From the NCBI RefSeq assembly GCF_036669915.1, contig NC_089322.1:16360219-16424218 (forward strand): a DNA stretch of 64,000 bases. Direction: 5' to 3'. The notes beneath the pieces were generated by a model. That model saw only the letters and a program-made list of their open reading frames with translations, ran no database searches and was not told the DNA's origin. This DNA is from Pocillopora verrucosa. Lineage: Eukaryota > Cnidaria > Anthozoa > Scleractinia > Pocilloporidae. Positions within the stretch are counted from its first letter, which is position 1; each line of letters opens with the position of its first letter. The translations under genes were made by a program, and so were the position numbers. Below, piece after piece: positions 5,411 to 50,370 of the stretch.

Positions 5411-7503
5411 GACATGCACTGACGAGACAAAATCAAGGGCTGTATCCATGCCCCAAGTGTCAGGCACAACTTTGCATCCCTGAAAGAAAGCGTTTGGATG
5501 ACCTACAAAGCAGTTTGCACAATAGTTTGTTGAGTCTTCTTGCCGTTCGACGCAATGGCGAAGGAAATGAGATCAGCTCTAGTACATGCCAGAAGAAGAG
5601 CGCTGAGATCAACTACTGCTTCGATTGCGAGAAGTTTATGTGCCTCGACAGTGTGAAAGCACGCGAAGTGTTTCGAGAAACTATGTTTGAGGGACACAAA
5701 GTCACGCCAGTGCATCACTTTCAAGCCGCAGGCTACAAGGCCTTGTTAAAATGGCAGTCGTTTTGCTCCGTTAAGTATCACGAGAATTACCACAAAAGAG
5801 ATGTGACTCGGTTTTTTTGCGTGGACTGTCAAAGATGTGTATGTCAAGTTTGCATCACCACAGATCACAAAATCCACGACATTGTTCCGCTTGAAAAGGC
5901 AGCGAATGATAAAAAAGCAAAGATAATCGCACGAGCCGTGCTGTTGAAAGGGAAGAAAGAGGCTTGTCGAGGTGTTATTCGTAAATTTAGAAGACGGAAG
6001 CTCAGTTGGAAATGAACATTACCGCCGCTAAATGCCAAGTTTCCCAAGCAACTGAACAGATGATGGGAAAGCTTCGCTAATTGGAGCGTGGAGCCATTAC
6101 TGCCCTCGAGAAGACTCGCGTGTCAAGGATTGAGAAATTACATTCTGGAAAAGCATCGGTTGTCTCTTTGGAAAAGCAACTTGACCAAGCATTTGAATTC
6201 AGTAACAACCTGGTTGAAAGAAGCTCCAGCTCAGACATAATGCAAAACAAGAAGAATGTGGAAGAGAGAATCTACTGAGGACCTCATCAAGACGACAATG
6301 CCAGCACTTCCGGTAAGCGCGTGTGTAGAATTTGTGTCGACATGCGAACCAGAGAGTTTGAGTCTGGGATTTACGAAATTCAGCGAAACAGATGTACAAG
6401 GATCGACCATGGAAGGACTGGATCAGAATTTTCAAGCTGGTGTAGAAGCAGAGCTACTAATTTGTCCCAAAATAAGTGAAGGATAAATCAGAAACATTTA
6501 GCACACAGATCGTGTGAAGTACATATAGATCCTGCGAATCAGGTGAGGAGTTTTGTTACAAGTGAAAAAGAATATGGAGGTTTCCAGGAAAAATTTGTAG
6601 CGAAAGCACCAGGTACATATGAAACAGAAACTTGCCAAGAATCCATTTTCTAATCAGGTTAAAGCACGAGAGTTAAATGTTGTGGGCAAGTTGGACTTTC
6701 AGAGAAGTAGGCAACAAGGTCTTGCCGGCATTGCAGTGAACAGCAAAGGTGTTCTTGCTGTGGCTGATATGAATAGTCACTGTATCCTGGTATTTGATGA
6801 GACAGGAAGTTTGTGGAAAAACTTGGTTCTTATGGAGACGAGGATGGACAACTAAACAAACCAGTCAACGTCACATTCCTAAACGATGACGAAATTCCGG
6901 TGGCGGAGGAATGATCAATGTAATCACCGAATACAGCAGCTAAATGTACAGACAGGGAACTTTGTGAAAAGCTTTGGAAAACTGGGAATTGTAGATGGAG
7001 AGTTTGAGAATCTCGCAAGTGTTTGTTTTACAAGTGATGAACGTTTTATTGTTGTAGCGGATTATAATAACAGCAGAATTGAGGTGTTTTCAATTGATGG
7101 TGAACCTGTGTTTAAGTTTGGAGACAGTGACCCAGAAAGGCTGAATCATCCACTCAGCTGCGTTTGTTACGAGGAAAAGTTCTTTGTAACTGACTGCAAT
7201 AATAACTGTGTGAAAGTGTTTGATGGGAGAGGACGGTTCCTGTACAAGTTTGGAGGGAAAGGAAACGGTGCTGGACAGAGTAATGTGCCGTGTGGCTTAT
7301 GTGTTGACAAACATAACATTATCCTATGAGAGAATAATCGCATTCAACAGTTGACATTGGAAGGAACTTTCATTAGAAAGACAAGTACTAATATTCAATT
7401 TGGATGGCCCTGGAGTGTTACCACAATGCTAGATGACCAGATTTTGGTCACAGACTTCAAAGGGAAAGAAATTTACATTCTAAAAATTTACGGAAGATTT
7501 TGA
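5411..7503 (+). pseudogene. TRIM-A: TRIM-NHL pseudogene, 5' truncated
   Basis: Homologous to TRIM-D (48167-50370). It begins inside the RING with only the last Cys pair (LYPCPKCQ, 5440-5475). B-box 1 has lost two zinc ligands (Cys to Ser in SSSTCQKK and CLDS). B-box 2 (SFCSVKYH to VCITTDHK) is readable. Then come a frameshift near 5990, a TAA in the coiled coil (6078), a frameshift near 6268, a TAA in the filamin domain (6484), further shifts near 6615 and 6815, a TGA at 6912 and a TGA at 7327 within the propeller. The last blade reads DQILVTDFKGKEIYILK and runs to 7503. Non-functional. The copy at 60074-62134 shares these lesions, so it decayed before duplication. Confidence 0.92.
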
Positions 7504-8030
7504 CATGTCACGTGTCGCAATACAATTTGAAAGAAAATGGCTAGGATCAGAAACTTGCCTTCAAATTTTTCAAGGAGAGTTCAAAGAATTGTTGATTCAT
7601 CACTTCAGCAATGTGATTGTTTGTGCTTTTAATTAATTATAGTAATAGTACTGAGTGGAGTCCAATCCAGTCTGTAATCATACAGGTGATTGACTAAATT
7701 GGACCACCGTGCGAAGCGGGAGTCGGTTTTGTCAATCACAAGTTTAAGAAAGCAACTAGATATTGGTTATACATTATGTGTATGTAATCGCATGGGCCAG
7801 AGGGCTAATGTGATTACTTGTTATCAGTTAAAGACAAAATTTTTGAGGGAATTGCATTCGCACATGATGTCCACGCACTTCAGCCCTTTCATTGCCTCCA
7901 CAAATGACAAAACAAACGTAACTGACCAATGTATTCAGTGAAAATTTTATTCTAAAATACAGTTAACAGTGTTACATTTTTCAGTGTTAGAGAGAGATTG
8001 TCATATTCATTGAGCCACTTTTTCGTGCAG

Positions 8031-8135
8031 AAGGTTTCAATTTTGGAACAAATGCTGACGATGACTGAGAATAAACTACGAGAATGCCTGGATAACCAAC
8101 AGAAAATCGCTTTACAGATCAGACCAAATGAGTAG
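8031..8135 (+). pseudogene. POC1 last coding exon (copy a)
   Basis: After a TTTTTCGTGCAG acceptor the exon reads KVSILEQMLTMTENKLRECL, then DNQQKIALQIRPNE and TAG. This matches the conserved C-terminal coiled coil of POC1A/POC1B ([23 protein letters not shown]), WD40 proteins that stabilise centrioles. The exon itself is intact, but its partner exon (QLDVLTQ) has been deleted here, though present in U1' at 62961. No WD40 exons are in the window. Best read as a stranded 3' fragment. Confidence 0.68.
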
Positions 8136-8289
8136 CGTAATACAGCTTCAGTATCTAGAGACTTAATCGTTGGTCATGTTCAGAATTCCTTTTCAGACTA
8201 GTCCTTGTACATGGTAATGTTGTAAACTCTAAAATAAATTTTCAATTGAGTGTAAAAAGTTGTGATGGACTGCATTGGTTTAACTTGAC

Positions 8290-8720
8290 TTTAGTCTGTT
8301 ATTAGTTTAGAAAGCCTATGCCACCCTCTCGTCCAATTAGATAGGAGCTATATCAAGATTAATTGTGGAGTTGGGCCATTCATGTATTTCCAGTACTTCA
8401 GGCTCTTTGCCAGTTTTTTCTCTGAGTTATCTTTGGCCTTTTGTTATATTCCTTTGTTAGAGTAGTTTCCAGCTGAGTATCGAAAGTGGTGCCGGATTGC
8501 TTTGTTTTCTTTCACTTTGTTTTGTGATTGGTCCAGAAAACTCGCGTTACAATCTCAACCAATCAAATGTAAAACTAAAAACAGTGGTCACCCGCGTTTT
8601 CCCGCGCATTTGGGAGGTTGCCTGTTTCTACTTTGAGTTCTTCCTAGTTAATAATCATGGTAACCTTTTGTTCTGATTAACAGTTATGATTAATTTGGTT
8701 TTGATTTTTCGATACTCAGT
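8290..8720 (+). promoter_or_regulatory. CCAAT-box / E2F-like block downstream of POC1 (U1)
   Basis: Contains several ATTGG/CCAAT elements and TTTTCCCGCGC at 8597-8607, a match to the E2F consensus TTTSSCGC. The block lies between the POC1 exon and the FHA gene's 5' region in each module (also 17460-17875, 28730-29230, 52900-53400). Promoter function is inferred from motif clustering and position only. Confidence 0.4.
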
Positions 8721-9299
8721 TGAAAAGTGCTCGATTATTAGCAGTTGTGATCACTTTGGATTTGGTTGTAGGACACCCAGTTGAAATGCACTCTTTGAGA
8801 ATACAGTATTTTATATCCGCGTGTGTGTACATATCATATAAAGTTACCAAGGGAATATCAGAAACTGCAAGTAGACCAATAAACTATTTATACCGAGCTT
8901 TGCTGTATGTTTGGAATGAGAACTTGTTTTACATTTAGTTGGAGGTTGAAGTAGCTTTTCTGCGAGCTGATTTTATGTGCTGGTGTTTTGTGCATTCGAC
9001 GTTCTTATGTGTTTGAAAATTGTGTTTTGTTTTGATACATATTCAGTAACTATGGATCTAGACTGAACAGAACATTATTTGTCCACTAGTGGATACAAGT
9101 TCATAATATTTCTCAAGAGTGAGAAATATTGTTGATACTTGCGGATAAACACGTATTAATCTGCGGCCAAGTAATGCCTTTCCAGGGTTATAAAAAATAT
9201 TTTGAGTAACTGGACTGTGATTCAAAGAAGGCGGCTTTTTTTCCCCATCATTGTCATGCTTCCATGCCTGTTACTGGCTTAGTAATGTAGAAAGGGCTT

Positions 9300-10170
9300 A
9301 TCTAGAATTGTTATGCTTTAGGTTTTAGATCAAACGTTCAAAATTTCGAACAATGAAAGCATTAGGGGCAAAATCTGTTATTTGGTGCATACACTGTGTG
9401 AACAGACTGTGTTCCTAAATGTAGAATGATTCTGAATGAAGAGGGTTATCTTAGGGAAGGAATGGGCAATGAGAGCCTGTATCACCAAGTGAAGTACTGA
9501 GGTATGGGTAGTAAAGATGGAGATAGGGCTACTTGACTTAGAAGGGTACTATACAGAGAGGTCAGTTCTCTGGAAATTTTTTTCAAGGGGCGGTGTGGGT
9601 TTATGCAGAAATAAACAACAACAACATCTTATGCCTCTTTCGCCTCCTTAGTGGATACTATTTCAAGTTGTCTTTAACTTTAAAGCTGGATCAAGATTAA
9701 ACCCCATTTTTTTTTTTCTGATTCTGCAGCAAGACTATTATCTTCCTACCAAGGTCAAAAAGAAATTTTCGCCAAAGGGGTAGGGCCATCTTCATGTATT
9801 ACGTTCAGGGGCTTGTTTCTTGAAAGTACCAGTAACTTAACGGACCCCAAACCATATTTTATAGTTAATATTTAAAGAGCAGAGAAGTAGCCAGTCCATT
9901 TTCTATCTTTTGTGGATAGTTTTACTTTATAATTTTCAAACTTTTGAAAAGCCCATCTTGAATGTAAACAGAACATCTTCACAGGTCTCTTTAGACATTC
10001 GAGAAAAAGGCCCCCACTCATTATACTTCTTAAACTTGTCAATTAGACTAGCAAACCTATTTTGTAGTTCTTGTTCCAACAATGAAGTACCACACTGCAA
10101 TAAACAAGACCAAGTGTCGAGACTTTATCTGAATTTCCTACTGAATGCTAAGAGACCTGTTTGTATCACG
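9300..10170 (+). pseudogene. FHA-RING gene remnant (U2): 5' flank, tail of exon 1, part of intron 1
   Basis: 9300-9420 matches the U5 5' flank (TTGGTGCATACACTGTGTGAACAG; compare 37640). It then jumps into the last part of exon 1 (AATGATTCTGAATGAAGAGG; compare 38366), so the FHA domain is missing. GAGGTATGGG at about 9500 is the exon-1 donor. 9840-10170 is intron 1 (CTTTTGAAAAGCCCATCTTG). No coding capacity is left. Confidence 0.65.
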
Positions 10171-13195: not shown

Positions 13196-13893
13196 AACCC
13201 AACATCAACCCTAACTTGCTATCGGTTTACTGGTTTGGGTTAGGAGAAGGGTAGGTGCGCAGTTCCATTGACTTTGATCCCAATCCACGATCTGCATCAA
13301 ATACGACAGGCAAACGAATAAAAATAGGTTATAACCTTTAAGCTAGTTTCTGTTCCCATAAGAAAGCAGATTTTACCTTTCCGTTTATCTCTCGTGACAG
13401 CACATGAAAACCAGACATTTGTTTATTGTTACTTTCCTACGCTTCCCTAGAAACATTGAAATCCAAAACTGAAGCTATCAAATACCGCCCTGGAGAATAC
13501 GACATCTCTTCTGATGAGATCCGATTCGCTGCTTTTAATAGAATACTGATTATTTCTCGTGTGGTGTCAAACAAGTTTCTTAGAATCTCAAACTCACTAA
13601 ACGGCGGTAAATGTAGCGACGACAAAATGAGCTAGATGGTTTATTTCCAAACCTTCGTAGCGTGTTGTTGTTCGTAAAACAGTGGCTAGAGCGACACATT
13701 CGTTCACGATTTTACTACTCAGTGATCGTAATAGTACACAATAGGTGGACAAGATTGCTAGACTGTCGATCTCTGCGCGAAGATCACGCGATCCTACAGT
13801 GATCTGATTCGCTGCTTTAAATAGCATGCTAATCCAAGTTCAATTTCTAGGTATCTTAAACAAACCAGGGCTGTGTTTTTGTCAGCAATTCGT
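13196..13893. other. Upstream region of TRIM-B, second part
   Basis: Matches 32080-32795 and 47530-48166 (ATCCAAAACTGAAGCTATCAAATA, GGTTTATTTCCAAACCTTCGTAG, GATTCGCTGCTTTAAATAG). It is conserved ahead of all three TRIM genes that keep a RING start, so it probably holds their promoter or 5' UTR. No TATA box or coding frame stands out. Confidence 0.45.
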
Positions 13894-15089
13894 GATGGAG
13901 TCGCTTCTAAAAAACCTCAAAGAGCATGTAACATGTTCGATTTGTTTGGATACTTACACGAAACCGAAGACCATTGCTTGTCTTCATACGTTCTGCTGTG
14001 AATGCCTGGAGAGACATGCACTAACGAGACAAAAACAAGGGTTTTTATCCATGCCCCGAGTGTCAGGCACAAATTGGCATCCCTGAAGGAAAGCGTTTTG
14101 ATAATCTGCCGAGCAGTTTTCTACACAATAGTCTGTTGAGTCTTCTTGCTGTTCGACGCAGTGGCGAAAATTTGTAGCGAAAAGTACCAGTTACCTATAA
14201 AATGAAAGTGAAGATAAATGGACAGAAACTTGCCAAGAGTCCATTTTCTATTCTGGTCAAAGCACGAGAGTTAAATGTTGTAGGCAAGCTGGATTTTCAG
14301 AGAAAAATGCTTCAAGGTCCAACCGGCATTGCAGTGAACAGTAAAGGTGTTATTGCTGTGGCTGATTCTGAAGGTCACTGTATCCAGGTATTTGACGAGA
14401 CAGGAAAGTTTGTGCGAAAACTTGGTTCTCATGGAGACGAGAATGGACAATTAAGAATTCCAGTCGACGTCACGTTCCTAAACGATGACGAGATTCTGGT
14501 GGCGGATCAATATAATCACCGAATACAGCAGTTGAATGTACAGACAGGGAACTTTGTGAAAAGCTTTGGAAAAAAGGGAAGTGGAGATGGAGAGTTTGAG
14601 AATCTTGCAAGTGTTTGTATTACAAGTGATGGGCGTTTTACTGTTGCAACGGATTTTAAGAACAGCAGAATTCAGGTGTTTACAATGGATGGTGAACCTG
14701 TGTTTAAGTTTGGGGACAGCGGCCCAGAAAGGCTAGATAATCCTGTCAGCTGCGTTTGTTACGAGGAAAAGTTCATTGTAACTGACAGGAATAATAACTG
14801 TGTTAAAGTGTTTGATGAGAAAGGACAGTTTTTGTTCAAGTTTGGAGAAAAAGGAAACGGTGATGGACAGATGGATATGCCGTTTGGCTTATGTGTTGAC
14901 AAACATAACAACGTTTTCTTATGTGACAAGGGGAATAATCGAGTTCAACAGTTTACATTGGAAGGAACTTTCATCGGAAAGACAAGTACTAATATTCAAT
15001 TTGGATGGTTCTGGAGCGTTACCCCAATGCTAGATGATCGGATTTTGGTCACAGATTACAAAGGGAACGAAGTTTACATTCTGAAATAA
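13894..15089 (+). pseudogene. TRIM-B: RING stub joined to an intact NHL propeller
   Basis: ATG at 13894 opens MESLLKNLKEHVTCSICLDT and the first six RING zinc ligands (C..C, C-L-H, C..C). A one-base insertion near 14045 shifts the frame before the last Cys pair. At about 14166 the gene jumps from GTGGCGAA to AAATTTGTAGCG, deleting both B-boxes, the coiled coil and most of the filamin domain. After one more inserted base, 14202-15089 is open for 295 residues: the end of the filamin repeat (KVKINGQKLAKSPFSILVK) and six NHL blades ending GNEVYILK, TAA. The propeller is undamaged. If an internal start were used it could make a propeller-only protein, but this is unproven. Confidence 0.88.
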
Positions 15090-18740: not shown

Positions 18741-19683
18741 ATGGCACTCTCCGCAGGCGCACGTCAAAAACGCCGCTCCAAGAAGGTGTCTGATCCAGAC
18801 TTCGTGTACGATTTTCCAACGGACTCGCTGTTTCATGACGCTCTCATTCTGGAGCAGAGCAATCCCGTTGACCCCGTTCTCTTCGAACAGTCTCCCAAGT
18901 CAAAACAGACCAGTTACAGTACCTGGAGCTTCTTCACCGCCATTCGTTCCTGACGCCGATACCAATCCTTCTCTTTCATTCGACCAGCAGCTTCAGTTGA
19001 TCAAACTACAAAAGGACAAGTTGGAGCTGGAGGTGAAAGTACTTGCCATGAGCCGCCAGGAACGCTCTCTCGAAAATTCGTTCGCAGATCTCTCCACGCG
19101 AGACGCCAGAGATGCTATTGCGCCAGGACGCACCAAGCGCAACATCGACTGGCCACAGGATTTTGTTCCGTCCATTCAAGGTGAATATGATAAGTTAGAA
19201 CTGCCTGAGTTTGTTTCGGGTTTCTTGATTATGATCAAAACCTATGATTCTTCGCTAAAGGATGCCATGTTAGCTCATCTCGAGTTACTACTCACTAAAG
19301 CAATTAGTTATTCGTGGATTAGCGTTCGTGGTTTTCATAAATTTATCGCCAAACAGGTCGAACAGCGTCGTTCGGAATGGCAGGATTTTAAGTCTATCCA
19401 AGATCAAGCCACAACCTTTTTTCGTCATTCAGATTTACGAAATACACGACAGCGAATTGACAACCCGCGTCAACCCTCTCACAACGCATCCTCGGGTGAT
19501 CGTCAACAGGCGGTTCCACCCACAGTCAAAAAAGCTTGCAAAACCTGGAATTACACTGGCTCTTGCGATTGCGATCCGCAAGATGAAGTTAATTACAAAG
19601 AACATCACCGCTGTCGAGTGTGCAAGGCGGATCACCCGATGCTTCGTTGCTCAAAACGTCGCACACCAATCCCACCTCAATGA
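18741..19683 (+). pseudogene. DIRS gag, one frameshift
   Basis: ATG at 18741 opens MALSAGARQKRRSKKVSDPD. The frame changes near 18895 to the one that stays open to TGA at 19683. The middle has a coiled-coil-like LIKLQKDKLELEVKVL. The C-terminus has a Cys/His cluster (CKTWNYTGSCDC, then HHRCRVCKADHPMLRCSKRR) like the zinc-knuckle tail of DIRS-type Gag proteins that binds element RNA. A single indel is enough to disable it unless it is a programmed shift or a base-calling error. Confidence 0.75.
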
Positions 19684-19728
19684 CAACTAGGCCGAGTAAT
19701 TCCAGACGAAATTTCCTCAGCGACCTCT

Positions 19729-21240
19729 TTGACCCGGAACGGAAACGGACATGAACAGTTTAAAAATTCAGCAGTTGTTCGACATTTAATTGCTTTGCAG
19801 CCAAATGCCTTCGGTGCCAAGGTTTTGGTTCCTACTTCGCTCTTGCTTTCGAACTGGAGAACACTGCTTTCCAATTATCATGATAACATTGTGATCGATT
19901 TTCTTTCGTACGGTTGGCCTGTTGATTATACAGCACACACTCCTCCTGTTTCATCATTGCATAATCATCCATCTGCTACGAACTTTGCTTCGCATGTGCA
20001 AACCTATCTTGACACTGAATTATCTTGGAATGCTATAGCCGGACCCTTCGATCATCCTCCATTTGCAGACGATTTCGTATCCTCGCCTCTTCAAACAGTG
20101 CCCAAACGTGGTACCTCGACGCGGCGCGTGGTTATGGACTTGAGTTTCCCTCACGGCTCCTCAGTCAACGATGGCATTTCTCAAGACACCTATCTGGGCG
20201 AGCATTTTAAGCTACGTTTGCCTGGCATTGATCGCCTCGTTGAATTCATTCTCGAGAAAGGTCGTAACTGTCTCATTTTCAAGAAGGACTTGCGTCGGGC
20301 TTATCGACAGTTTCCTGTAGACCCCAAGGACTATAATTTACTGGGCTTTTGTTATAAGGGTAAATTTTATTTTGACACTCGTTGCCCTTTCGGTTTGCGT
20401 TCGTCAGCTATGATTTGCCAACGCACGACAAAGGCGGTCGTCCATATCTTCACTGAACAGGGGTTTTTCGCAGACGTTTATCTTGACGATTTTTACGGCG
20501 CGGAATATCCATCTCTTGCAGCCCAGGCCTTTTCCTGTCTCGGTCAGCTATTCCAACATCTCGGCTTAGATTCTTCTCCTGCGCAGGACTCGCCTCCTTC
20601 AACGTCCATGATTTGTCTCGGTCTTCTTGTTGACACTGCAGCGTTCACCCTCGAGGTTCCTCCTTCACGTCTTGACGATTTACAGGCCGAACTCAAACTT
20701 TGGCAATCCTCTACCTGTTTTACTAAGAAACAACTTCAGTCCCTTTTAGGGAAGCTCTCTTTTGTTACCGCTTGCGTTCAGCCCGGTAGAATCTTCATGG
20801 CTCGACTCCTCAATAGTCTTCGCGAGTGCACGCAGCCAGCCCGTCACCGATACCCCATTTCTGCTTCTCTGCTCTCAGATATTCAGTGGTGGCTCGATTT
20901 TCTTCCCCGGTTTAATCGTGTATCGCTCATCAAGCCTTCCTCCTGGGACTTTGAGAGCCTTAACTTCTCGACTGACGCCTGCCTTTCTGGAGGCGGCGCT
21001 ACTTGTCAAACGGAGTGCATTAGCTTTGTTTTTCCTGATTGTATTTCTCCTGCCAATCTTCATATCAACGCGCTGGAACTTTTCACGATCATTGTTTCAC
21101 TCAAGCACTGGGCTCCTCAGTTACGCGGACGCAAATTCATCATTGCCTGTGATAACTCCGCTGCGGTGACAAAAGATGAGACGCTAAGCCACGCGCTAGA
21201 TTATAAAGGAAATTCGATATCTCTATCACTAGTTAATTAA
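19729..21240 (+). CDS. DIRS reverse transcriptase / RNase H, C-terminally truncated
   Basis: One open frame of about 500 residues without an ATG at its start, suggesting expression by shift or read-through from gag. RT motifs are in order: RRVVMDLSFPHGSSVNDGIS, FKKDLRRAYRQFPVDP (first catalytic Asp), CPFGLRSSAMICQR, and VYLDDFYG (catalytic DD). RNase H follows: STDACLSGGGA (Asp), INALELFTII (Glu), FIIACDNSAAV (Asp). The frame then enters the right terminal repeat and stops, so the last RNase H acidic residue is lost. The RT core looks intact; the element as a whole is defective. Confidence 0.88.
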   Translation: MTRNGNGHEQFKNSAVVRHLIALQPNAFGAKVLVPTSLLLSNWRTLLSNYHDNIVIDFLSYGWPVDYTAHTPPVSSLHNHPSATNFASHVQTYLDTELSWNAIAGPFDHPPFADDFVSSPLQTVPKRGTSTRRVVMDLSFPHGSSVNDGISQDTYLGEHFKLRLPGIDRLVEFILEKGRNCLIFKKDLRRAYRQFPVDPKDYNLLGFCYKGKFYFDTRCPFGLRSSAMICQRTTKAVVHIFTEQGFFADVYLDDFYGAEYPSLAAQAFSCLGQLFQHLGLDSSPAQDSPPSTSMICLGLLVDTAAFTLEVPPSRLDDLQAELKLWQSSTCFTKKQLQSLLGKLSFVTACVQPGRIFMARLLNSLRECTQPARHRYPISASLLSDIQWWLDFLPRFNRVSLIKPSSWDFESLNFSTDACLSGGGATCQTECISFVFPDCISPANLHINALELFTIIVSLKHWAPQLRGRKFIIACDNSAAVTKDETLSHALDYKGNSISLSLVN

Positions 21241-21263
21241 CCATCACTAATCAATGATTACTC
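21167..21263 (-). repeat. DIRS right inverted terminal repeat
   Basis: Reverse complement of 18579-18675. The inner end TGACAAAAGATGAG fuses to RNase H codons; the outer end GATTACTC is followed by AATCACCCACGTTACC, which is not FHA-gene sequence. Confidence 0.9.
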
Positions 21264-21475
21264 AATCACCCACGTTACCAAGACGACGCAACAGTTTGGG
21301 CAAAATGAGTTTATTGCACAGTGCGAGAACTGCCTGACAAAATACTGGACAATAAACAAGAACGCCAAAGTGCCCAAACTGGAGTGTAGAAAAAGGGAGA
21401 GTGAGGTGATTGAGGAGAATACGAAAAGGTTATAAATGAAAAAAGAAAAAATAATGGAAATCTATTAAGAAATCA

Positions 21476-22129
21476 TTATTCTGGAAACATAGTCTGAAGC
21501 TTGTCCGCCATAGCTTGACCCGCGCGCTGTTTCTGCTGCTGAGATAATTCTAGATACACGAGATATGCGTCGCTTTGCCAATCGCCCTGCAATTTGATGA
21601 TTTCCGAGGGAATATGACAGTCAAAGGCAAAAGTAGCCCCGCCCCGTCGAAAACTATGAGGAGAAAATTTAGAGGGATCTAAGTGGAGACTAGAAATAAC
21701 CCGAGAAAGAAAGGCGCAAAATTGCTTGTAAGTAATTGGTTGTAGACCAGACCCCGATATAACTGAAAAAAGGGGAGCAGAAACTGGCCCGGGATTTAGG
21801 GATAAATGGCGACGAAGAGCGAAAATGGGGCAAAGACGAGACCCAGGGACCCTGGGGATGGGCAAATCTAGAGAACGTTGCTGACACTGAATGGTCTTGG
21901 TAGCGGAGACATGGATGTTAGCGCCCACAGGTGTAAAAGCCAAACTTGCCCTAGTGATGACCTTAGGAGAAATTCGCCGCGGGTTGTCTGGTACTAAATT
22001 GGATTTGCGTAAAAAAGTAAAAAATGCAACTAGAAACAAAGCCCACATAGCTGCGTGCAGCGGAAGTGAGAGATTGAAATGGTCAAATGCGGCGTGCAAA
22101 ATAGAAGGGTAATAGCATATTTTCGACAA
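21476..22129 (-). pseudogene. Tyrosine recombinase fragment, opposite to the DIRS RT
   Basis: The - strand frame of about 217 residues has the recombinase catalytic set: Arg in TFLRKSNL, HSFRR in KFSPHSFRRGGATFAF (His and second Arg), Trp in LQGDWQSDAYLVYLE and the Tyr nucleophile. The N-terminal arm is missing: host intron sequence resumes at about 22125 (compare TTGACAATGTTCAC at 39703), so the gene is cut. It matches DIRS/Crypton-type recombinases in general form. It lies outside the DIRS right repeat. It may be the same element's recombinase in reverse orientation (an arrangement known from Kangaroo-type DIRS elements) or a second element's remnant. Confidence 0.8.
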
Positions 22130-30830: not shown

Positions 30831-32795
30831 CGTTTGCCTTTCAGCCTTCCTAAGTTTGTTATCGGAGCTTAGTTAAGTGGGCGACTCCTCCATCTCTTGT
30901 CCCTCTTTTTTGACCCATTATTCCCATTAATTTTTTTCTTCACTGATATTTTTCGACTCGCTGGACGGACTTTGCCGAAAATGAGGGACTGCTCGTAGTC
31001 TAGTGCTGTTATCGCCGGTTACACTAAATAAAATGCTGTAGTTTGGTGTGAAATTTTCATAAAGGTTTGAACTAGTTTAAGTTCTCTGAACTCAAATATA
31101 AAAGAACATAAACCAATGTTAAAAAAAAAAGTTAATCGTTAGCACAGTGACCGAACACAAATCAACGTGATATTCGTTGCGTTTTGTTTACCTTTTTCGT
31201 CACGAGACAAAATCATTTTCCAGATTTTAGTCATTTAAAATGTTTAGAGTATCAATCGATGTATTCTAAAAGCTCTGTCCTACTATCTTTTCTTCTTAAA
31301 ATGGTTCAAATCAAGATTTATAAAGCAACCAGTATAAAACGGTCGGCGTTTACTCGACAGATAATTTGCACAATTTACTGTCACGCTAGCAAAATCACCA
31401 AAAGTTTGAAGTCCCTACGGCGGAGGAAATTAGGAAGGAACATGCAAGATGTTTTTGTATTTCTATGCTTTCGAACATCTTACTAATGGAATCAGCCGGA
31501 GTTTTTAATGGTCTGATCTGCACTTGAGAAATATCACCCAAGTAAGAAAGAGTACCTTTAACCAATTTCAGAAAGCTTTCTAACAGGTGCTTTAAATAAA
31601 TAATGGCAAACCTCTGAAAAAACACCTATCAAAAATGAAATCCTTTCCCAACCCTTTAGATATCACACAATTTAGGAATACAAACGATTTCTTGCAGCAT
31701 GCAGTGTGTTACGAGGAGCAAGCTTGTCACCTATTAAAATTTTCGATGTCGCAAGAGGTCAAAAAGAGGAATTCTACAGCTTTGATTATTGAGATGTCTC
31801 AATTATTTTTTAAGGTATTTCCAGAAACCAATGTGGTTTTATTTACTTACTTCAAAAGATAATAAATGGGCAAAGTTTGAGGCAAAACTCTTTTCCGATG
31901 CAAAATGCCCTGGACCGCTGTTACAGAGACTGCCACTTATTGAAAATAGTGTGGCAGAGGAGAATCGCAACCGAGCGTTTTTTTTTCCCCTTAATTTAAC
32001 TTTCACCTAAATTTACTTGACACAATAACTGCAACAATTGGTTGTCTATATGACCAACTGTGCACCTACCCCTCCCCTTACCCAACATTAACCCCAACTT
32101 GTTATTAGTTGAGTGTTTTTGGGTTAGGGGAAGGGTAAGGGCGCAATTCCTTTAACATTGATCTTGGTCCACGAGCCGCACCAAATGCAATACGCAAACG
32201 AATCAAAATAGGTTACAACCTTTAGAGAGCTAGTTTCCCTTAATATAGGAAAGCAGATTTTACCTTTTCGTTAGTCTCTCGTCACAGCACATGAAAACCA
32301 AACATACGTTAATTGTTTCTCTCAAGCTTCCTTAGAAACATTGAAATCCAGAGCTGAAGCTATTAAATGCCGCTCTAGAGAACACAAGATCTCTTCTGAA
32401 GAGATCCGATTCGCTTCTTTTTATAGAATCCTGATTATTTCTCGTGTGGTGTCAAAGACGTTTCTCGGAATCCCGAACTCACTAAACGGTGGTAAATGTA
32501 GCGATGATAAAATGAGGTAGATGGTTTATTTCCAAACCTTCGTAGCATGTTGTTTTTCATGATACAGCGGGTAGAGCGACACATTCGGTCACGCTATGAA
32601 ATCGATTTTACTACGCAGTGACAGAGAAAGCAGACAATAGGTGGATAAAATTCCAATGTAAAACTGTCAATCTCTGCGCAAAGATCACGCGATCCTACAG
32701 AGATCTGATTCGCTGCTTTAAATAGAATGCTAATACAAGTTCAGTTTCTCGGAATCTCAAACGAAACAGGGCTGTGTTTTTCTCAGCAATTCGTG
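30831..32795. other. Upstream region of TRIM-C
   Basis: Module spacer matching 10171-10931 plus 13196-13893 and 46500-48166. Two overlapping open frames at 31635-31862 and 31789-32010 have plausible composition but do not persist in U2 or U5, so I do not call them genes. Best view of the empty site for the transposon at 10932. Confidence 0.5.
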
Positions 32796-33932
32796 ATGGA
32801 GTCGCTTCTAAAAAACCTCAAAGAGCACGTAACATGTTCGATTTGTTTGGATACTTACACCAAACCCAAGGATCCGTCGTGGAAGGACTGGATCAGAATT
32901 TTCAAGCTGGTATAGAGGCAGAGCTACTAATTTGTCCCAAAACAAGCGAAGGAGAAATCAGAAACACTCGGCACAAAGATCGTGTTGAAATACACTTGGA
33001 CCCTGCGGATCAGGTGAGGAGTTTGGCGACGAGTGAGAAAGAAGATGGAAATTTCCAAGCAAAATTTGTAGCGAAAGTACCAGGTACTTATAAAATAGAA
33101 GTAAAGATAAATGGACAGAAACTTGCCCGGAGTCCATTTTCTATTCTGGTCAAAGCACAAGAGTTAAATGTTATAGGCAAGTTGGACGTTCAGGGAGAAA
33201 TGCTGCAAGGTCCTGCCGGTATTTCAGTGAACAGTAAAGGTGTTATTGCTGTGGCTGATCGGGAAGGTCACTGTATCCTGGTATTTGATGAGAAAGGAAC
33301 GTTTGTGCGAAAAATTGGTTCTTATGGAGACGAGGAGGGACAATTAAAGAATCCAGTCGACGTCACGTTCGTAAACGATGACGAGATTCTGGTGGCAGAT
33401 GAATGTAATCACCGAATACAGCAGTTGAATGTACAGACAGGGAACTTTGTGAAAAGCTTTGCAAAAAAGGGAAGTGGAGATGGAGAGTTTAAGAATCCTG
33501 CAAGTGTTTACAAGTGATGGACGTTTTATCGTTGTAGCGGATTTTAATAAGTTTGGAGACAGCGGTCCAGAAAGGCTGGATCATCCACTCAGCTGCGTTT
33601 GTTACGAGGAAAAGTTCATTGTAACTGAGAAGAATAATAACTGTGTGAAAGTGTTTGATGAGAAAGGACAGTTTTTGTACAAGTTTGGAGAAAAAGAAAA
33701 CGGTGATGGACAGATGGATCAGCTGTATGGCTTATGTGTTGACAAACATAATAACGTTTTCTTATGTGATGGGAGAAATAATCGAGTTCAACAGTTTACA
33801 TTGGAAGGAACTTTCACTGGAAAGACAAGTTCAAATATTCAGTTTGGATGGCCGTGGAGTGTCACACCAATGCTAGATGATCGGATTGTGGTCACAGACT
33901 ACGAAAAGAAAGAAGTTTACATTCTGAAATGA
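32796..33932 (+). pseudogene. TRIM-C: deleted TRIM-NHL pseudogene
   Basis: ATG at 32796 opens MESLLKNLKEHVTCSICLDT and YTKPK, then at about 32868 the gene jumps out of frame to the filamin domain (VEGLDQNFQAGIEAELLICP), deleting most of the RING, both B-boxes and the coiled coil. The filamin repeat and NHL blades 1-2 stay open to about 33510. A small deletion (GTGTTTACAAGTG against GTGTTTGTGTTACAAGTG) shifts the frame, and a further 45 bp or so of blade 3 is missing (ADFN to KFGDSG). Blades 4-6 are readable to EVYILK, TGA at 33932. No functional ligase possible. Confidence 0.9.
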
Positions 33933-37439: not shown

Positions 37440-38028
37440 ACCCAGTTTAAGAACACGAAGAATACACTGTTTTATATCTGTGTGTACATATCATATAAAG
37501 TTACTATGGCAATATAAGAACCGCAATCAGATTAATTAATTAATTAATTAACTATTATTACCGACCTTTGCTGTATATTCAAACTTTCACAATGCCACAC
37601 AACGACAGCATCAAGGGGAAAAATTCCCTATTTTGTGCATACACTGTCCGAACAGACTGGGTTCGGAAACATCTAAATTCAATTGAAAGTACAAAACTTT
37701 GCATGCTGATCAACACAGTTCGCGTGTTTCGAGCCTACGAACGATGTGAGCGTGACAGAGATCCGCGAGAAAACAAAACATCACTTTCACATTCATTCCT
37801 CATATCCGTTATCCTTTTCCCTATTCCTGATTTTGCTAACGAGAAGTTACACCCGAGCTTGTCCGATCTTGTCCGAACGATTTCCGAATATCGTGTCGTA
37901 CTGTTAAAATGGCCGCTTGGAGAGTACTTCAAGAACACTGGAAGAATCTTGAAGTGGTATAAGAGGCTTTTGCACACTGAAACAGAAGAGAAAAATGTTC
38001 TGTCTGCAGTGGGTCGAAGGTAATTGCT
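37440..38028 (+). promoter_or_regulatory. 5' flank / probable 5' UTR of the FHA-RING gene (U5)
   Basis: Conserved with 17980-18530, including MAAWRVLQEHWKNLEVV, a 17-codon upstream open frame at 37909. Antisense and sense open frames of about 100-150 codons across it are broken in the U3 copy, so they are not counted as genes. No TATA box stands out. The start site is not determinable from sequence. Confidence 0.4.
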
Positions 38029-38468
38029 ATGATCCATCTCTACAACCGGAAAAAAATCTTGCTAAAACCGACTGTCACTCGTCTCGGAAGCAGTAATGAA
38101 TATTCAGATGTTGTTATTGACAGTGTGATATCTCCTTTAATGATCAGTCGTGTTCACGCTGAAATTCATTTCAGCAATGGAAAATTCAGAATTGATTGTA
38201 AAGGACTGAACGGGCTGCTAGTCAACAAAACAAAGCGTAGCTCTGCTGTCCTATGCGATGGTGATGTTGTTGTCTTTGGAGGTGCTGGCGTTAAAACGAA
38301 AGAAGGACAGAGTTTGTCAGCTTACGATTCGGAGCTTGTGTATGTTTTTAATGAGGTCTGCCAGAATGATTCTGAAGAAGTGGGCTCCCTTGGGGAAGGA
38401 ATAAGCGATGGAAGCGTGCGAAGGCGAAGCAAACGGAAAAAGCCCGTATCACTAAGTGAAGGAGTGAG
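38029..38468 (+). CDS. FHA-RING gene (U5), exon 1: FHA domain
   Basis: ATG at 38029, then KILLKPTVTRLGSSNEYSDV and the FHA core VISPLMISRVHAEIHFSNGK, FRIDCKGLNGLLVNK, LCDGDVVVFGG. The conserved Arg (RLGSS), S-R-x-H (MISRVHAEI) and Asn (LNGLLVN) that bind phosphothreonine are present. PLMISRxH and SLNG resemble RNF8. A basic tail (RRRSKRKKP) ends at a GAG/GTATGG donor in phase 2, matching exon 2. With the RING exons this would be an RNF8/CHFR-type phospho-dependent ubiquitin ligase. It is the only complete exon 1 in the window, but downstream RING lesions suggest the gene may no longer make an active ligase. Confidence 0.8.
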
Positions 38469-38843
38469 GTATGGGTACATAACACTCAGAAGTAGGGGTA
38501 GTAATGATGGAGAGTAGGGTCACTTGACCTAGAAAAGGAGTGTAGGGTACTAGACAGAGAAATAAATACTTTGGAAAAAAATTTCAAGGGGGTGATGTGG
38601 GTTGAGATCATAGAAATTACAACAACCTCTTGGCTCTTTCACTTCCTTAGCAGATACTGTTTTGTCTGTAACTCTTAAGTAGGATCAATATCATATCCCA
38701 GTTTTTTATTATTTTATGATTTTGCATGAAGACTATCATCTTTCTTCCAAGGGTCAAATATAAATTTTCCCCAAAGGTGTAGGGGCATCTTCATATCTTA
38801 AGTTGGGGGGCCTGTTTCTTGAATTACTGTCCCAGTAACTTAA

Positions 38844-39014: not shown

Positions 39015-39374
39015 TTAACAGGCCCCAAACCATATTTTAAAGTCAATATTTAAAGCCAATAGAGAAGCAGATTCTAACACCCTAACCAGTTCATTGTTAA
39101 TATTTTGTTGATAGTTGTATTGTATAATTTTCACAACTTTTGAAACCCTCATCTTGAATGAAAACAGACAGCTGTACAGGCCTATTAAGTTACCAGGATC
39201 TCCCGAAACAGGTTCCCACTCATTACACCTCGTTAACATAACCATTTTGTTGTATGTGTTCCTAAAATCAAGTTCCAGACTGCTAAAAATAAGACCAAGT
39301 GTCAAGACCTAATCTGAACTTCCTATTGAATGCTGATAGGCCTGTCAAACTTCTAATATTTTTGTAATTTTCAG

Positions 39375-39420
39375 CTCTCCATGTGAAAAGAAGACTAAAG
39401 GCAGCATGGACGATAAGCAG
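39375..39420 (+). CDS. FHA-RING gene (U5), exon 2
   Basis: TTTTCAG/CTCTCCATG to AAGCAG/GTAGAT, 46 nt: completes Ser from exon 1, then SPCEKKTKGSMDDKQ, ending in phase 0. Short basic linker. The call rests on splice sites and phase agreement with both neighbours. Confidence 0.6.
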
Positions 39421-43680: not shown

Positions 43681-44171
43681 TAGAGCTCTGGGTTCAAGAC
43701 CTGGACAAGTCATTGTGTCGTGTTCTAGGGTGAGACAGTTAACTATCAGAGTGCTCCTCTTCACACGCGATTATAAATGGGTACTGCTGTCAAGGAAACC
43801 TGATGAAATGCAAGGATGGTAACCTGCAATGGACTGATATCCCACCTAGGGGGTAGGGTTGTAAAACCAAACCCAAGAAATCTCAAAGACCAACCAGATG
43901 AAAAGAAAATAGCATGAGCAGCTAATGAAAACTGATAGTGAAAGCAAACAAACTGGCTGAAGCATGGGAAAATGCGGGTAATCAAGTCACACTTGGTTGG
44001 AATTTTGAGTCTGATTGGTTCAGAAAGAGATGCAAGCTTTCTTGACCAATCACAGAGCAAAGTGAGTTAAAACCAAAGCAATCTCAGATTACCTTCAACA
44101 TTCCATTAATAATTGCTTGAAAACGATGAACATGTTGAAAAGGTTGTTAATTAATTTGTTACATTTTACAG

Positions 44172-44243
44172 GTCAGAGCTGGAGCAGAGCCTGGGAATCT
44201 TGCTGTTGGTGACCCAGAAGTGGTTGAAGTGGGGCTTGCTCAG
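44172..44243 (+). pseudogene. FHA-RING gene (U5), exon 8, shortened
   Basis: TTTTACAG/GTCAGAGC to CTCAG/GTACCC, 72 nt, open: VRAGAEPGNLAVGDPEVVEV then GLAQ. It lacks the PAMFSIP codons of U3 by an in-frame 15-bp deletion. Confidence 0.55.
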
Positions 44244-44366
44244 GTACCCTTCTAACACTTTTTCCTCTGGGGCTAGTGATTATTTATCATGGTGGGGGTA
44301 GATAGGGTTGGAGGATTTTGGTTGTGTCTCAACGAAATTTATCTGATCCCTCCATAAGGTTTTGCA

Positions 44367-46150
44367 GTATTTTTATGATCCTCCTTCTCATTCACAGTCA
44401 ATTTTCTATAGTCCCCTTTAATACTCTGTTGGTGACAGTAGATTTCCCCCACTATAACCCCCCCACCTCCCCCCTGATATTTTTATGATCCTCCTTCTCA
44501 TTCACAGTCAATTTTCTATTGTTCCCTTTAATACTCTGTTGGTGACAGTAGATTTCCCCCACTATAACCCCCTGGCCTCCCCCCTGTGATATTTTTATGA
44601 TCCCCCTTCTCATTCACAGTCAATTTTCTATATTCCCCTTTAATACTCTGTTGGTGACAGTAGAATTCCCCCACTATAACCCCCTGGCCTCCCCCCTGTG
44701 ATATTTTTATGATCCTCCTTCTCATTCACAGTCAATTTTCTATTGTTCCCTTTAATACTCTGTTGGTGACAGTAGATTTCCCCCACTATAACCCCCTGGC
44801 CTCCCCCCTGTGATATTTTTATGATCCCCCTTCTCATTTGCAGTCAATTTTCTATATTCCCCTTTAATACTCTGTTGGTGACAGTAGATTTCCCCCACTA
44901 TAACCCCCTGGCCTCCCCCATGATATTTTTATGATCCTCCTTCTCATTCACAGTCAATCTTCTATAGTTCCCTTAAATACTCTGTTGGTGACAGTAGATT
45001 TCCCCCACTATAACCCCCTGGCCTCCCCCCTGTGATATTTTTATGATCCTCCTTCTCATTCACAGTCAATCTTCTATAGTTCCCTTTAATACTCTGTTGG
45101 TGACAGTAGATTTCCCCCACTATAACCCCCCCGCCTCCCCCCTGTGATATTTTTATGATCCCCCTTCTCATTCACAGTCAATCTTCTATAGTCCCCTTTA
45201 ATACTCTGTTGGTGACAGTAGATTTCCCCCACTATAACCCCCTGGCCTCCCCCCTGTGATATTTTTATGATCCCCCTTCTCATTTGCAGTCAATTTTCTA
45301 TATTCCCCTTTAATACTCTGTTGGTGACAGTAGATTTCCCCCACTATAACCCCCTGGCCTCCCCCCTGTGATATTTTTATGATCCTCCTTCTCATTCACA
45401 GTCAATTTTCTATAGTCCCCTTTAATACTCTGTTGGTGACAGTAGATTTCCCCCACTATAACCCCCTGGCCTCCCCCCTGATATTTTAATGATCCTCCTT
45501 CTCATTCACAGTCAATTTTCTATATTCCCCTTTAATACTCTGTTGGTGACAGTAGATTTCCCCCACTATAACCCCCTGGCCTCCCCCCTGTGATATTTTT
45601 ATGATCCCCCTCTTCATTTGCAATCAATTTTCTATATTCCCCTTTAATACTCTGTTGGTGACAGTAGATTTCCCCCACTATAACCCCCTGGCCTCCCCCC
45701 TGTGATATTTTTATGATCCCCCTTCTCATTCACAGTCAATTTTCTATAGTCCCCTTTAATACTCGGTTGGTGACAGTAGATTTCCCCCGCTATAACCCCC
45801 TGGCCTCCCCCCTGTGATATTTTTATGATCCTCCTTCTCATTCACAGTCAATTTTCTATAGTCCCCTTTAATACTCTGTTGGTGACAGTAGATTTCCCCC
45901 ACTATAACCCCCCCGCCTCCCCCCTTTAATACTCTGTTGGTGACAGTAGATTTCCCCCGCTATAACCCCCTGGACTCCCCCCTGTGATATTTTTATGATC
46001 CTCCTTCTCATTCACAGTCAATTTTCTATAGTCCCCTTTAATACTCTGTTGGTGACAGTAGATTTCCCCCACTATAACCCCTGGCCTCCCCCCATGCAAT
46101 ATTTTTATGATCCCCCTTCTCACTAGTAGTCAATTTTCTATAGTCCCCCT
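44367..46150. repeat. 112-bp minisatellite, about 16 units, containing exon-9 sequence
   Basis: Unit: ATTTTTATGATCCTCCTTCT, CATTCACAGTCAATTTTCTA, TAGTCCCCTTTAATACTCTG, TTGGTGACAGTAGATTTCCC, CCACTATAACCCCC, TGGCCTCCCCCCTGTG. Starts recur near 44367, 44477, 44587, 44699, 44811, 44921, 45035, 45145, 45257 and so on to 46097, mostly 112 bp apart with 110-bp variants; one unit near 45927 is partial. Degenerate units continue to 46480 after a repeat of the flank (46185-46290 copies 44260-44366). U3 has a single copy split between 27710-27760 and 27919-27965. About 65-residue - strand frames here are by-products. Confidence 0.93.
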
Positions 46151-46489
46151 CGATACTCTGTCGGCGAATGCTGATTCCCCCCCTTTTTCCTCTGGGGCTG
46201 GTGATTATTTATCATGGTGGGGGTAGATAGGGTTGGAGGATTTTGGTTGTGTCTCAATGAAATTTACCTGATCTCTCCATAAGGTTTTGCAATATTTCTA
46301 TGATTCCCCTTCTCTGTTGGCGAATGCTGATTCCCCCCACTATAACCCCAGCCCCCCCCCCCCCCCCCCATGCAATATTTCTATGATCCCCCTTCTCATT
46401 AGCAGTCAATTTTCTATAGTCCCCTTTAATACTCTGTTGGCGAATGCTGATTCCCCCCACTATAACCCCTCCTATCGATAAATAGTGAT

Positions 46490-48166
46490 TTTCCTTTTCC
46501 CAAACTTAATCTCACTGAAAGCGCTGCTTCTGTTACTTTGCATTTAGGAAGGGTAGAAATATAGCGTTTGCCTTTCAAAGTCTGTTCAGGTGGAGATGGT
46601 AAGGGGAAGAAATTGCGCATGACCGGTTTGTGTCACGCGAAAAGCGCGCGGGCTGCGTGAAAAAAGCGAAGTGCCCATAGAAATACTAGGGTTTTAGATT
46701 CTGTTATTCACAGACTTTGTATTTTATCTTCAATCATTGTTCAGAGCGCGAGAGAAGGAAAGAGCTGCAGGGTATTTAAAGAACACGAATTTTATGCGAA
46801 CAGTTATGGACAGAAGGCGAGACCACACCAGCCTCATCCTCTGTTAGGCTGTCACCGAGCGCTTGAAAAGAGAAAAGCTTAGTTAAGAAGGTGACTCCTT
46901 CATCTCCTCTCAATTGAGTCCCTTTTTTTCAGCCATTATCCCTTCCCCCCATTCTCGCACTCCGTTTACATTTGTTGAACCGGAAGGCTGATGTTTGACA
47001 GTTGCATGGTCACAAGAATGAACTGAAAATAGTGTGGCTGCGAATAACTGCAGCCAAGCGGTTTTTTCCCTTTTGGGCGAAGTCCGTTGCGCGAGTTAAA
47101 AGAAAAAAAATCAGAGCTGAAAAAAGAGAAGATGTTCACGCGCCGCTCTGAGCCCTGGGAGTGAGCATTAACAATTTTTTCTTCACTGACTTTTTTCGAC
47201 TCGCGTAACGGACTTTGCCGAAAAGGAGGGACTGCCCGTAGACTTCGCTGGTTACGCTAAATAAATGCTGTAGTTTGGTTTGAAATGTTCATACAGGTTT
47301 GAACTAGTTTAAGGTCTCTAAACTCAAATAAAACAGAGCCGGCGCCAATTTTTTAAAAAGAGTTAATCATTAACACTTTGACCGAACGCTGTCAATGTGA
47401 TATTTGTTACGTATTGTTCACCTTTTTCGTCTCGAGACAGAATCATTAGCCAGATTTTAGCAGTTTAAAAAAGCGAGAATATAAATCAGTGTATTATTAA
47501 AACTTTGCCCTACTATCTTTTATTTTTAAAATGGTAGGGACGCAGTTCCCCTGACATTGATCCTAGTCCACGATCCGCACCAAATGCAATACGGAAGCGA
47601 TTCAAAATAAGTTACAACCTTTAGAAGCTAGTTTCCGTCCTCATAAGAATGCAGATTTTCCCTTTCCGTTAGTCTCTCGTGACAGCACATGAAAACTAGA
47701 CAACTGTTTATGGTTACTCTCTCACGCTTCCTCAGAAACACTGAAATCCAAAACTGAAGCTATCAAATACCGCACTAGAGAACACGAGATCTCTTCTTAA
47801 GAGGTCCGATTCGCTACCTTTAATAGAACACTGTTTATTTTTCTTGTGGAGTAAAACAAGGTTTGCTTAATCCTAAACTCACTAAACGGCGCTAAATGTT
47901 GCAATGATAAAATGAGGTAGATGGTTTATTTCCAAACCTTCGTAGCATGTTGTTCTTCGTGATACAGTGGCTAGAGCGACACATTCGGTCTACAGAACGA
48001 AGACATTCGGTTAAAAAAATTGCAATGTCACTCCGTCAATCACTGCGCGAAGATCACGCAATCCTACAGAGATCTAATTCGCTGCTTTAAATAGAATTCT
48101 AATCCAAGTCAGTTTCTCGGAACCTCAAACAAAACAGGGCTGTGTTTCTCTGTACAATTCGTGATC
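46490..48166. other. Upstream region of TRIM-D
   Basis: Module spacer. It contains a GC-rich patch at 46620 (CACGCGAAAAGCGCGCGGGC) and a 22-bp inverted repeat, 47075-47096 against 47199-47220 (GGGCGAAGTCCGTTGCGCGA), not seen as a pair in U4. From 47540 it matches the leader found before TRIM-B and TRIM-C (TTCCAAACCTTCGTAGCATG, TTCGCTGCTTTAAATAG), so the promoter or 5' UTR probably lies within the last 650 bp. Confidence 0.45.
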
Positions 48167-50370
48167 ATGGAGTCACTTCTGAAAAACCTCAAAGAGCATG
48201 TAACATGTTCGATTTGTTCGGATACTTACACGAAACCGAAGACCATTGCTTGTCTTCATACGTTCTGTTGTGAATGCCTAGAGAGACATGCACTAGCGAG
48301 ACAAAACCAAGGTGTTTATCCATGCCCTGTGTGTCAGGCACAAATTCGCATCCCTGAAGGAAATCACTTTGATGATCTGCCAAGCAGTTTTCTGCACAAC
48401 AGTTTGTTGAGTCTTCTTGCTGTTCGACGCGGTGGCGAAGGAAGCGAGATCAGCTGTAGTACATGCCAGAAGAAGAGCGCTGAGATCAACTACTGTTTTG
48501 ATTGTGAGAAGTTTATGTGCCCCGACTGTGTGAAAGCACACGAAGTGTTTCGAGAAACTATGTTTGAGGGACACAAAGTCACACCAGTGCAAAAGTTTCA
48601 AGCTACAGACTACGAGGCTTTGTTCAAACGGCAGTCATTTTGCTCAGAGAATTACCACAAAAAAGATGTGATTCGTTTTTATTGCGTGGACTGTCAGAGG
48701 TGTATATGTCAAGTTTGCATTGTCACAGATCACAAAAGCCACGACGTTGTTCCGCTTGAAAAGGCAGCGGACGATGAAAAAGCAAACATCATTGCCAGAG
48801 TACAGCTGGTCAAAGGGAAGAAAGAGGCTTGCCGAGGTGTTATTCGTGAATTTGAGAAGACGGAACTTGAGTTGGAAACGAACATTACCACAGCTAAACG
48901 CCAAGTCTCTCAAGTAACCGAACAGATGATGGGAAAGCTTCGTCAACTGGAGCGTGAAGCCATTTCTGCCCTCGAGAAGACTCGCGTGTCAAGGATGGAG
49001 AAATTACATTCTGGAAAAGCATTGGTTGTCTCTTTGGAAAAGCAACTTGACCAAGCATTTGAGTTCAGTAACAACCTGGTTGAAAGAGGCTCAAGTTCAG
49101 ACATAATGCAAAACAAGAAAAATGTAGAAGAACGAACCGAAGACCTCATCGAGACCACAATGCCTGTACTTCTGGTTAACTCGAGTGTGGAGTTTGTGTC
49201 GACATGTGAACCAGAGAGTTTGAGTCTGGGATTTACGAAATTCGGCGAAACAGATGTGCAAGGATCGACCGTTGAAGGACTGGATCAGAATTTTCAAGCT
49301 GGTATAGAGGCAGAGCTACTAATTTGTCCCAAAACAAGCGAAGGAGAAATCAGAAACACTCGGCACACAGATCGTGTTGAAATACACTTGGACCCTGCGG
49401 ATCAGGTGAGGAGTTTGGCGACGAGTGAGAAAGAAGATGGAAATTTCCAAGCAAAATTTGTAGCGAAAGTACCAGGTACTTATAAAATGAAAGTGAAGAT
49501 AAATGGACAGAAACTTGCCAAGAGTCCATTTTCTATTCTGGTAAAAGTACGAGAGTTAAATGTTGTAGGCAAGTTGGACTTTCAGAGAGAAATGCTCCAA
49601 GGTCCTGCCGGCATTGCAGTGAACAGTTATGGTGTTACTGCTGTGGCTGATCTTAAAGGTCACTGTATCCTGGTATTTGATGATACAGGAAAATTTGTGC
49701 GAAAACTAGGTTCTTATGGAGACAAGGATGGACAACTAAACACACCAATAGGCGTCACATTCCTAAACGATGATGAGATTCTGGTGGCAGATGAATGTAA
49801 TCACCGAATACAGCAGTTGAATGTACATACAGGGAACTTTGTGAAAAGCTTTGAAAAAAGGGAAGTGGAGATGGAGAGTTAAAGAATCCTGCAAGTGTTT
49901 GTGTTACAAGTGATGGACGTTTCATCGTTGTAGCGGAGTACGAGAACAGCAGGATTAAGGTTTTTACAATGGACGGTGAACCTGTGTTTAAGTTTGGAGA
50001 CAGCGGTCCTGAAAGACTAGATCATCCTCTCAGCTGCGTTTGTTATGAGGAAAAGTTCGTTGTAACTGATCTCTATAATAACTGCGTGGAAGTGTTTGAT
50101 GAGAAAGGACAGTTTTTGTACAAGTTTGGAGAAAAAGGAAACGGTGATGGACAGTTGAATCAGCCGTTTGGCATATGTGTTGACAAACATAACGTTTTCT
50201 TATGTGAGAGGGGGAATAATCGCATTCAACAGTTTACGTTGGAAGGAACTTTCATTGGAAAGACAAATACTAATATTCAATTTAAAGCGCCTTGGAGTGT
50301 TACCCCAATGCTAGATGATCGGATTTTGGTCACAGACTTCAAAGGGAAAGAAGTTTACATTCTGAATTGA
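48167..50370 (+). pseudogene. TRIM-D: full-length intronless TRIM-NHL gene with one missing base
   Basis: ATG at 48167. RING with all C3HC4 ligands (C14, C17, C29, H31, C34, C37, C53, C56). B-box 1 from C97 (CSTCQKKSAEINYCFDC, CPDCVKAH). B-box 2 about 156-205 (SFCSENYH, YCVDCQRCICQVCIVTDH). Coiled coil about 205-330. Filamin repeat about 355-480 (EAELLICPKTSEGEIRNTRH to SPFSILVK). Then six NHL blades to EVYILN, TGA. This is the TRIM2/TRIM3/TRIM71 architecture: ubiquitin ligases and/or RNA-binding repressors. Near 49853 AGCTTTGAAAAAAGGG lacks one G of the AGCTTTGGAAAAAAGGG in TRIM-B, stopping the frame at 49882 in blade 3; blades 3-6 continue open in the other frame. Total about 734 residues if the base were present. 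Either a very recent pseudogene or a sequencing error in a live gene. Confidence 0.92.

Follow-up and report, generated by a model that had tools for sequence, protein, structure and literature searches.

Probable past diversifying selection on one face of the NHL propeller in a decayed TRIM-NHL gene cluster of the coral Pocillopora verrucosa

Did selection favour change on the surface with which the clustered TRIM-NHL genes of the coral Pocillopora verrucosa would bind their ligands, and does the cluster still hold a working recognition repertoire? We analyzed 64,000 nucleotides of the forward strand of contig NC_089322.1 (assembly GCF_036669915.1, positions 16,360,219 to 16,424,218; hereafter the window, to which all coordinates below refer). 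Using tblastn and nucleotide alignment, we located five copies of a TRIM-NHL gene (RING-B-box-coiled coil-filamin-NHL), designated A to E, all on the + strand. The data support adaptive diversification of one face of the NHL propeller among them. With a probability of roughly 80%, the locus is a birth-and-death TRIM-NHL cluster whose recognition face underwent adaptive change first, with the decay of most copies coming later.

The NHL propellers differed most at the two residues following the xxD of each blade and around the GQxxxP turn. Codons of A to E were projected onto the NHL frame of copy B, whose residue numbers are used here. This projection recovered the residue pairs quoted in a first-pass annotation of the same DNA: SE (B), RE (C), LK (D), and MN (A/E) in blade 1; FK (B), YE (D), and YN (A/E) in blade 3; RN, KN, LY, and CN in blade 4; and KG, GR, and RG in blade 5. 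The residues it had listed after GQ were also present (LRIP in B, LKNP in C, and LNTP in D; in blade 5, MDMP in B and LNQP in D). Residues 56 (codons TCT/CGG/CTT/ATG) and 196 (AGG/AAG/CTC/TGC) were different in all of A to D.

An AlphaFold2 run with the copy B NHL and window fragments (8 rows) returned a confident propeller, with a mean predicted local distance difference test score (pLDDT) of 86.6 and a predicted template modelling score (pTM) of 0.84. Its near structural neighbours included Thin (6xg7, 6d69), LIN41/TRIM71 (6fq3, 6fpt), TRIM2/3, and Brat. The strand list of the model places the xxD+1/+2 residues in the loops that link strand B to strand C and the GQxxxP residues in inter-blade loops. 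Face assignment relied on this strand order and on the usual topology of propellers rather than on atomic coordinates; both groups of residues are predicted to share one face, here called the top. The portion of the zebrafish LIN41-RNA structure report that we consulted names 14 RNA-contacting residues (PMC5908797); with the offset fixed by 14/14 residue identities, all of these fall at xxD+1/+2, at GQ+2/+3, or at the residue after P. We extended this rule to all six blades, which gave a mask of 30 contact-equivalent positions. A 12-position LIN41 mapping through circularly permuted phmmer alignments, for which the nonsynonymous/synonymous rate ratio (dN/dS, omega) was 4.35-4.49, was replaced by the collinear structural-alignment register despite its larger value.

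Among A to D, 25 of the 30 mask positions varied, compared with 71 of the 242 other NHL positions (Fisher P = 1.4e-8); the earlier description of the framework as almost constant was therefore an overstatement. In copy B (+ strand), the contact-equivalent positions of the blade 1 entry turn under the LIN41 rule are at 14313-14324 (residues 38, 39, and 41, with 38 and 39 invariant), and the variable pair after the blade 1 VAD is at 14367-14372 (residues 56-57). Blade 2 has its positions after GQ at 14454-14465 (residues 85, 86, and 88) and its pair after VAD at 14508-14513 (residues 103-104). The entry turn of blade 3 is at 14598-14609 (residues 133, 134, and 136, with 134 and 136 invariant), followed by the pair after ATD at 14655-14660 (residues 152-153). 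For blade 4, the entry turn is at 14736-14747 (residues 179, 180, and 182) and the pair after VTD at 14787-14792 (residues 196-197). The corresponding sites are the turn after GQ at 14874-14885 (residues 225, 226, and 228) and the pair after LCD at 14928-14933 (residues 243-244) in blade 5, and the turn at 15003-15014 (residues 268, 269, and 271) and the pair after VTD at 15057-15062 (residues 286-287) in blade 6.

We fitted our own codon likelihood model, in which the synonymous rate (dS) was common to all classes, on all three topologies; all dN/dS results rest on the five window copies, in effect four independent sequences. Omega was 2.49-2.62 at the 30 contact positions versus 0.46 elsewhere, and omega = 1 at the contact positions was rejected (likelihood ratio test statistic, LRT, 18.3-21.3). 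The 14 collinear LIN41 positions alone gave 3.0-3.2, and the other 16 blade equivalents 2.0-2.2. By face, omega was 1.03-1.07 in top loops, 0.30 in bottom loops, and 0.49-0.50 in strands, and equality of top and bottom loops was rejected (LRT 21.2-23.6, P = 1.2e-6 to 4.1e-6); top-loop residues outside the contact positions had an omega of 0.57-0.58. Two expectations raised with the original proposal, dN/dS above neutral at the variable sites and placement of these sites on one face of a predicted propeller, were thus borne out among the window copies. In all six pairs of A to D, dN at contact positions exceeded the NHL-wide dS (ratio 1.43-2.22; 0.24-0.52 elsewhere), and the RING/B-box, coiled-coil, and filamin regions had an omega of 0.23-0.51. 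Among the five copies, omega exceeds 1 at the putative binding face, with purifying selection elsewhere, as in a diversifying recognition family. With local dS, the 27 positions of the first-pass annotation gave a pairwise omega of 0.74-2.39, below 1 in two of the six pairs (B-C and C-D), in which local dS was unsteady with few synonymous sites. Site models (M1a, M2a, M8a, and M8) were significant, but only two or three codons accounted for the signal, and we relied on the partition tests instead.

Change after the death of a gene tends toward omega = 1 and cannot exceed it; the excess thus dates from functional lineages. In those lineages, one NHL face would have been under diversifying selection at xxD+1/+2 and around GQxxxP, with the strands and the opposite face conserved meanwhile. 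Because these are the positions by which LIN41 grips RNA, the copies probably had different ligand-reading surfaces, each carried on a constant E3-ligase chassis. The face presumably bound a ligand, and this ligand may have differed between copies, driven either by conflict (with a virus, microbe, or transposon) or by target change; the decay of most copies in the window would have been a later step. A constant E3 chassis with a single face that changes, duplication both in tandem and by segments, and recurrent decay together resemble, by analogy, birth-and-death recognition families. A further step, which we propose tentatively and at somewhat less than even odds, is that the NHL propeller served this animal lineage as a germline-diversified recognition surface reading foreign RNA or proteins, analogous to the B30.2 loops of TRIM5alpha and finTRIM.

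The best-surviving alternative is ordinary functional divergence, in which the copies were fitted to different self RNA or protein targets without any parasite conflict. This account disputes the cause of selection rather than selection itself. TRIM-NHL proteins of known function act on self mRNAs, and the residues in contact with RNA vary from one subfamily to another: of 15 residues that matter for RNA binding by Brat, Mei-P26 fails to conserve 11, according to the sections consulted of two reports (PMC9070667; also PMC5908797). However, fast duplication, decay, and change are generally more typical of conflict genes, and we regard divergence without conflict as possible but rather unlikely.

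Copy D (48167-50370, +) is the best preserved of the five and contains RING, B-boxes, a coiled-coil region (assigned from its position between B-box and filamin), filamin, and NHL. Pfam matched RING models, a B-box in two stretches (5.5e-14), and filamin (1.2e-9). Its frame stays open over 595 codons between two stops, which would make introns a less likely source of the broken frames. A single 1-nucleotide deletion at ~49853, adjoining a run of A, may reflect an error in sequencing or damage of recent origin. In copy B (13889-15089, +), the RING frame is broken, with a stop at 14084-14086, and deletions have removed the B-boxes and coiled-coil region together with most of filamin; its NHL open reading frame (ORF; 14202-15089, 295 codons; Pfam match 3.3e-33) is intact. 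In copy C (32790-33932, +), the initial 27 residues of RING are followed, after a loss of ~1 kb, by filamin and NHL in a different frame, and the NHL has deletions of 5 and 45 nucleotides. Copy A (5410-7485, +) is a 5'-truncated pseudogene extending from the RING tail to NHL, with six frameshifting indels of its own relative to D and three stops in D's frame; a seventh indel in this comparison is D's own deletion seen from A's side. Copy E (60073-62116, +) is a duplicate of A (98% identity over 3.2 kb) that has the six indels and the matching three stops in common with A and one additional 35-nucleotide deletion. As A and E have the same lesions, A was already dead before the duplication. The duplicated segment carrying A spans 2350-8515 (+), and its partner, which carries E, spans 56926-64000 and runs to the window end; at 98.8-99.1% identity in four blocks, the duplication is recent.

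With respect to class VII TRIM architecture, RING and B-boxes at the N-terminus were found in copy D, whereas B and C have no B-boxes; filamin precedes a six-bladed NHL propeller (from Pfam and the strand order of the model), but none of the five copies has one uninterrupted full-length reading frame, which leaves them as remnants or nearly intact members of this class. Sequencing error could explain the one base missing from D but not the broken frames of A and E (identical lesions in two copies) or of B and C (kilobase deletions). Copies A, C, and E are clearly pseudogenes. The four paralogues reported earlier are all real, and E, which lay outside the interval then considered, had been missed, as had the lack of an intact full-length frame in every copy. 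DNA identity among the paralogues was ~80-88% over matched stretches, and searches of viral contig and genome contig collections found no stretch encoding a relative. Within filamin, C 32870-33050 and D 49259-49444 are 99% identical, while most flanking and NHL windows are 84-94% identical; C-D dS was 0.057 in this stretch versus 0.178 in NHL. Of the proposed recognition repertoire under diversifying selection, past selection on one face is supported, but a living repertoire in the window is not: A, C, and E are dead, most of the protein is missing from B, and D carries a single frameshift.

Such decay could suggest that relaxed constraint is sufficient, with exposed loops and dead genes drifting to variability without selection for change. 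Every copy is damaged to some degree, dead copies are expected to drift, and M2a places 62% of sites in the omega = 1 class. However, drift takes omega up to 1, not to 2.5; omega = 1 at the contact positions was rejected with the plain model, with multi-nucleotide changes allowed, and with a free rate, and the remaining top-loop residues and the bottom loops stayed well below 1. We therefore consider relaxed constraint improbable.

The observed omega was matched by none of 20,000 random masks and none of 271 cyclic shifts, and an offset scan was highest at xxD+1 (grid omega 7.5). In a parametric bootstrap on one topology, none of 56 replicates reached the observed value. At the contact positions, omega was 2.17-2.28 when double and triple changes were allowed (LRT 11-13, P = 1.3e-4 to 3.9e-4), 1.88-2.01 when codons 56, 196, and 226 were removed (P = 0.001-0.003), and 3.55-3.83 when contact codons were given a free rate (relative rate 0.67-0.70; LRT for omega = 1, 6.6-7.4). 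Excluding A and E gave 2.54 versus 0.35 (P = 1.7e-4). It is very improbable that changes were piled onto the contact codons by a mutational hotspot, by multi-nucleotide mutation, or by conversion from donor genes not seen here: although two or three bases separate 11 of the 12 A-D codon pairs at residues 56 and 196, the fit improves with double changes allowed, and C and D share the near-identical filamin stretch, a pure hotspot was rejected (LRT 17.7-18.9), the codon rate was not raised in the free-rate fit (2.0-2.1 if omega was forced to 1), and omega was still 2.2 with multi-nucleotide changes allowed.

Several points weigh against adaptive diversification before decay. With three of the five copies clear pseudogenes, post-death change is mixed into the signal, and the top-face loops taken whole have an omega of about 1, not above. 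M2a and M8 assign ~1.2% of sites to the positive class, with codons 56, 196, and 226 foremost among them, and a signal of this kind can be inflated by multi-nucleotide changes. The contact rule was applied only after the variable sites were known, and it derives from LIN41 alone, leaving out Brat contacts such as F916, N933, and R875, which appear in the part consulted of another report (PMC13245067). No variation occurs at residues 38, 39, 134, and 136, which belong to the 14 collinear contact positions. The P of the turn, although not part of the mask, evolves at the same pace as GQ+3 (both grid omega 2.29), making the LIN41 match close but not exact. Lysine or arginine occupies 2/14 collinear contact positions in B, 3/13 in C, 1/14 in D, and 1/14 in A, compared with 8/14 in LIN41, and these sequences give no evident sign of a basic pocket like that of LIN41; over the 30 mask positions, each copy has 2-5 basic (K/R) and 2-5 acidic (D/E) residues. 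Finally, the C-D filamin stretch suggests a gene-conversion tract or recombination, and possible recombination was handled only by trying three topologies.

The window also contains other elements. Retroelement-like ORFs occupy 18835-22129, including one at 19729-21237 (+) with a reverse transcriptase match (PF00078, 8.6e-8). Another, at 21476-22129 on the minus strand, had no Pfam match at E 0.001; we take it to resemble a tyrosine recombinase, and the region as a whole suggests a DIRS-like element. A 178-residue ORF at 37981-38517 has an FHA domain (PF00498, 3.9e-10) and no evident tie to the TRIM cluster. Between C and D, 44368-45925 is an array of 14 units of 112 bp (94% matches), with related copies up to 46161, and the 4-kb interval 44001-48000 has a GC skew of -0.23. 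A repeat of ~130-190 bp recurs between the copies (4800-4981, 10029-10160, 30504-30688, and 39242-39380), and a second (5216-5358 and elsewhere) lies ~50 bp upstream of the start of A's homology to D. These repeats are possible substrates for the rearrangements.

TRIM-NHL proteins are best known for regulating development, whereas immune TRIMs that evolve fast belong to the B30.2 type (for fish, PMC3137616). If diversification of the NHL face before decay is correct, TRIM proteins would have in the NHL propeller a second recognition surface, moulded by conflict or by targets that change rapidly, and the contact positions would provide a short residue list for testing. It would also be relevant to the fast evolution of NHL specificity, an issue that the LIN41/Brat comparison raises (PMC5908797). 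Among the matches listed, we found no report of diversifying selection on NHL domains in titles or abstract openings. In the excerpt consulted, TRIM subfamily C, including RBCC-NHL proteins (RBCC, RING-B-box-coiled coil), is listed as animal-only, and animal TRIM genes are described as undergoing rapid tandem expansions (PMC3503706).

Compared with LIN41/TRIM71, a class VII TRIM with eight lysines or arginines among its 14 named NHL contacts, the window copies have one to three, and their contact positions change between paralogues of ~80-88% DNA identity. A diversified binding face is a feature of the window copies that we did not meet in the literature covered on the NHL of Drosophila Thin/Abba (6xg7, 6d69). 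Merulinid corals share with the window a lineage-specific expansion of NHL-repeat and B-box orthogroups; in the sections we consulted, that report covers expansions only, without selection or structure (PMC11639872). The nearest parallel appears to be the fish B30.2 TRIMs: like the window copies, finTRIM, btr, and hltr, together with TRIM5alpha (RBCC-B30.2), are described in the text available to us as multigene TRIMs with positively selected ligand-binding loops (PMC3137616). These families diversify the B30.2 domain, whereas the window copies, known from sequence alone, diversify the NHL propeller.
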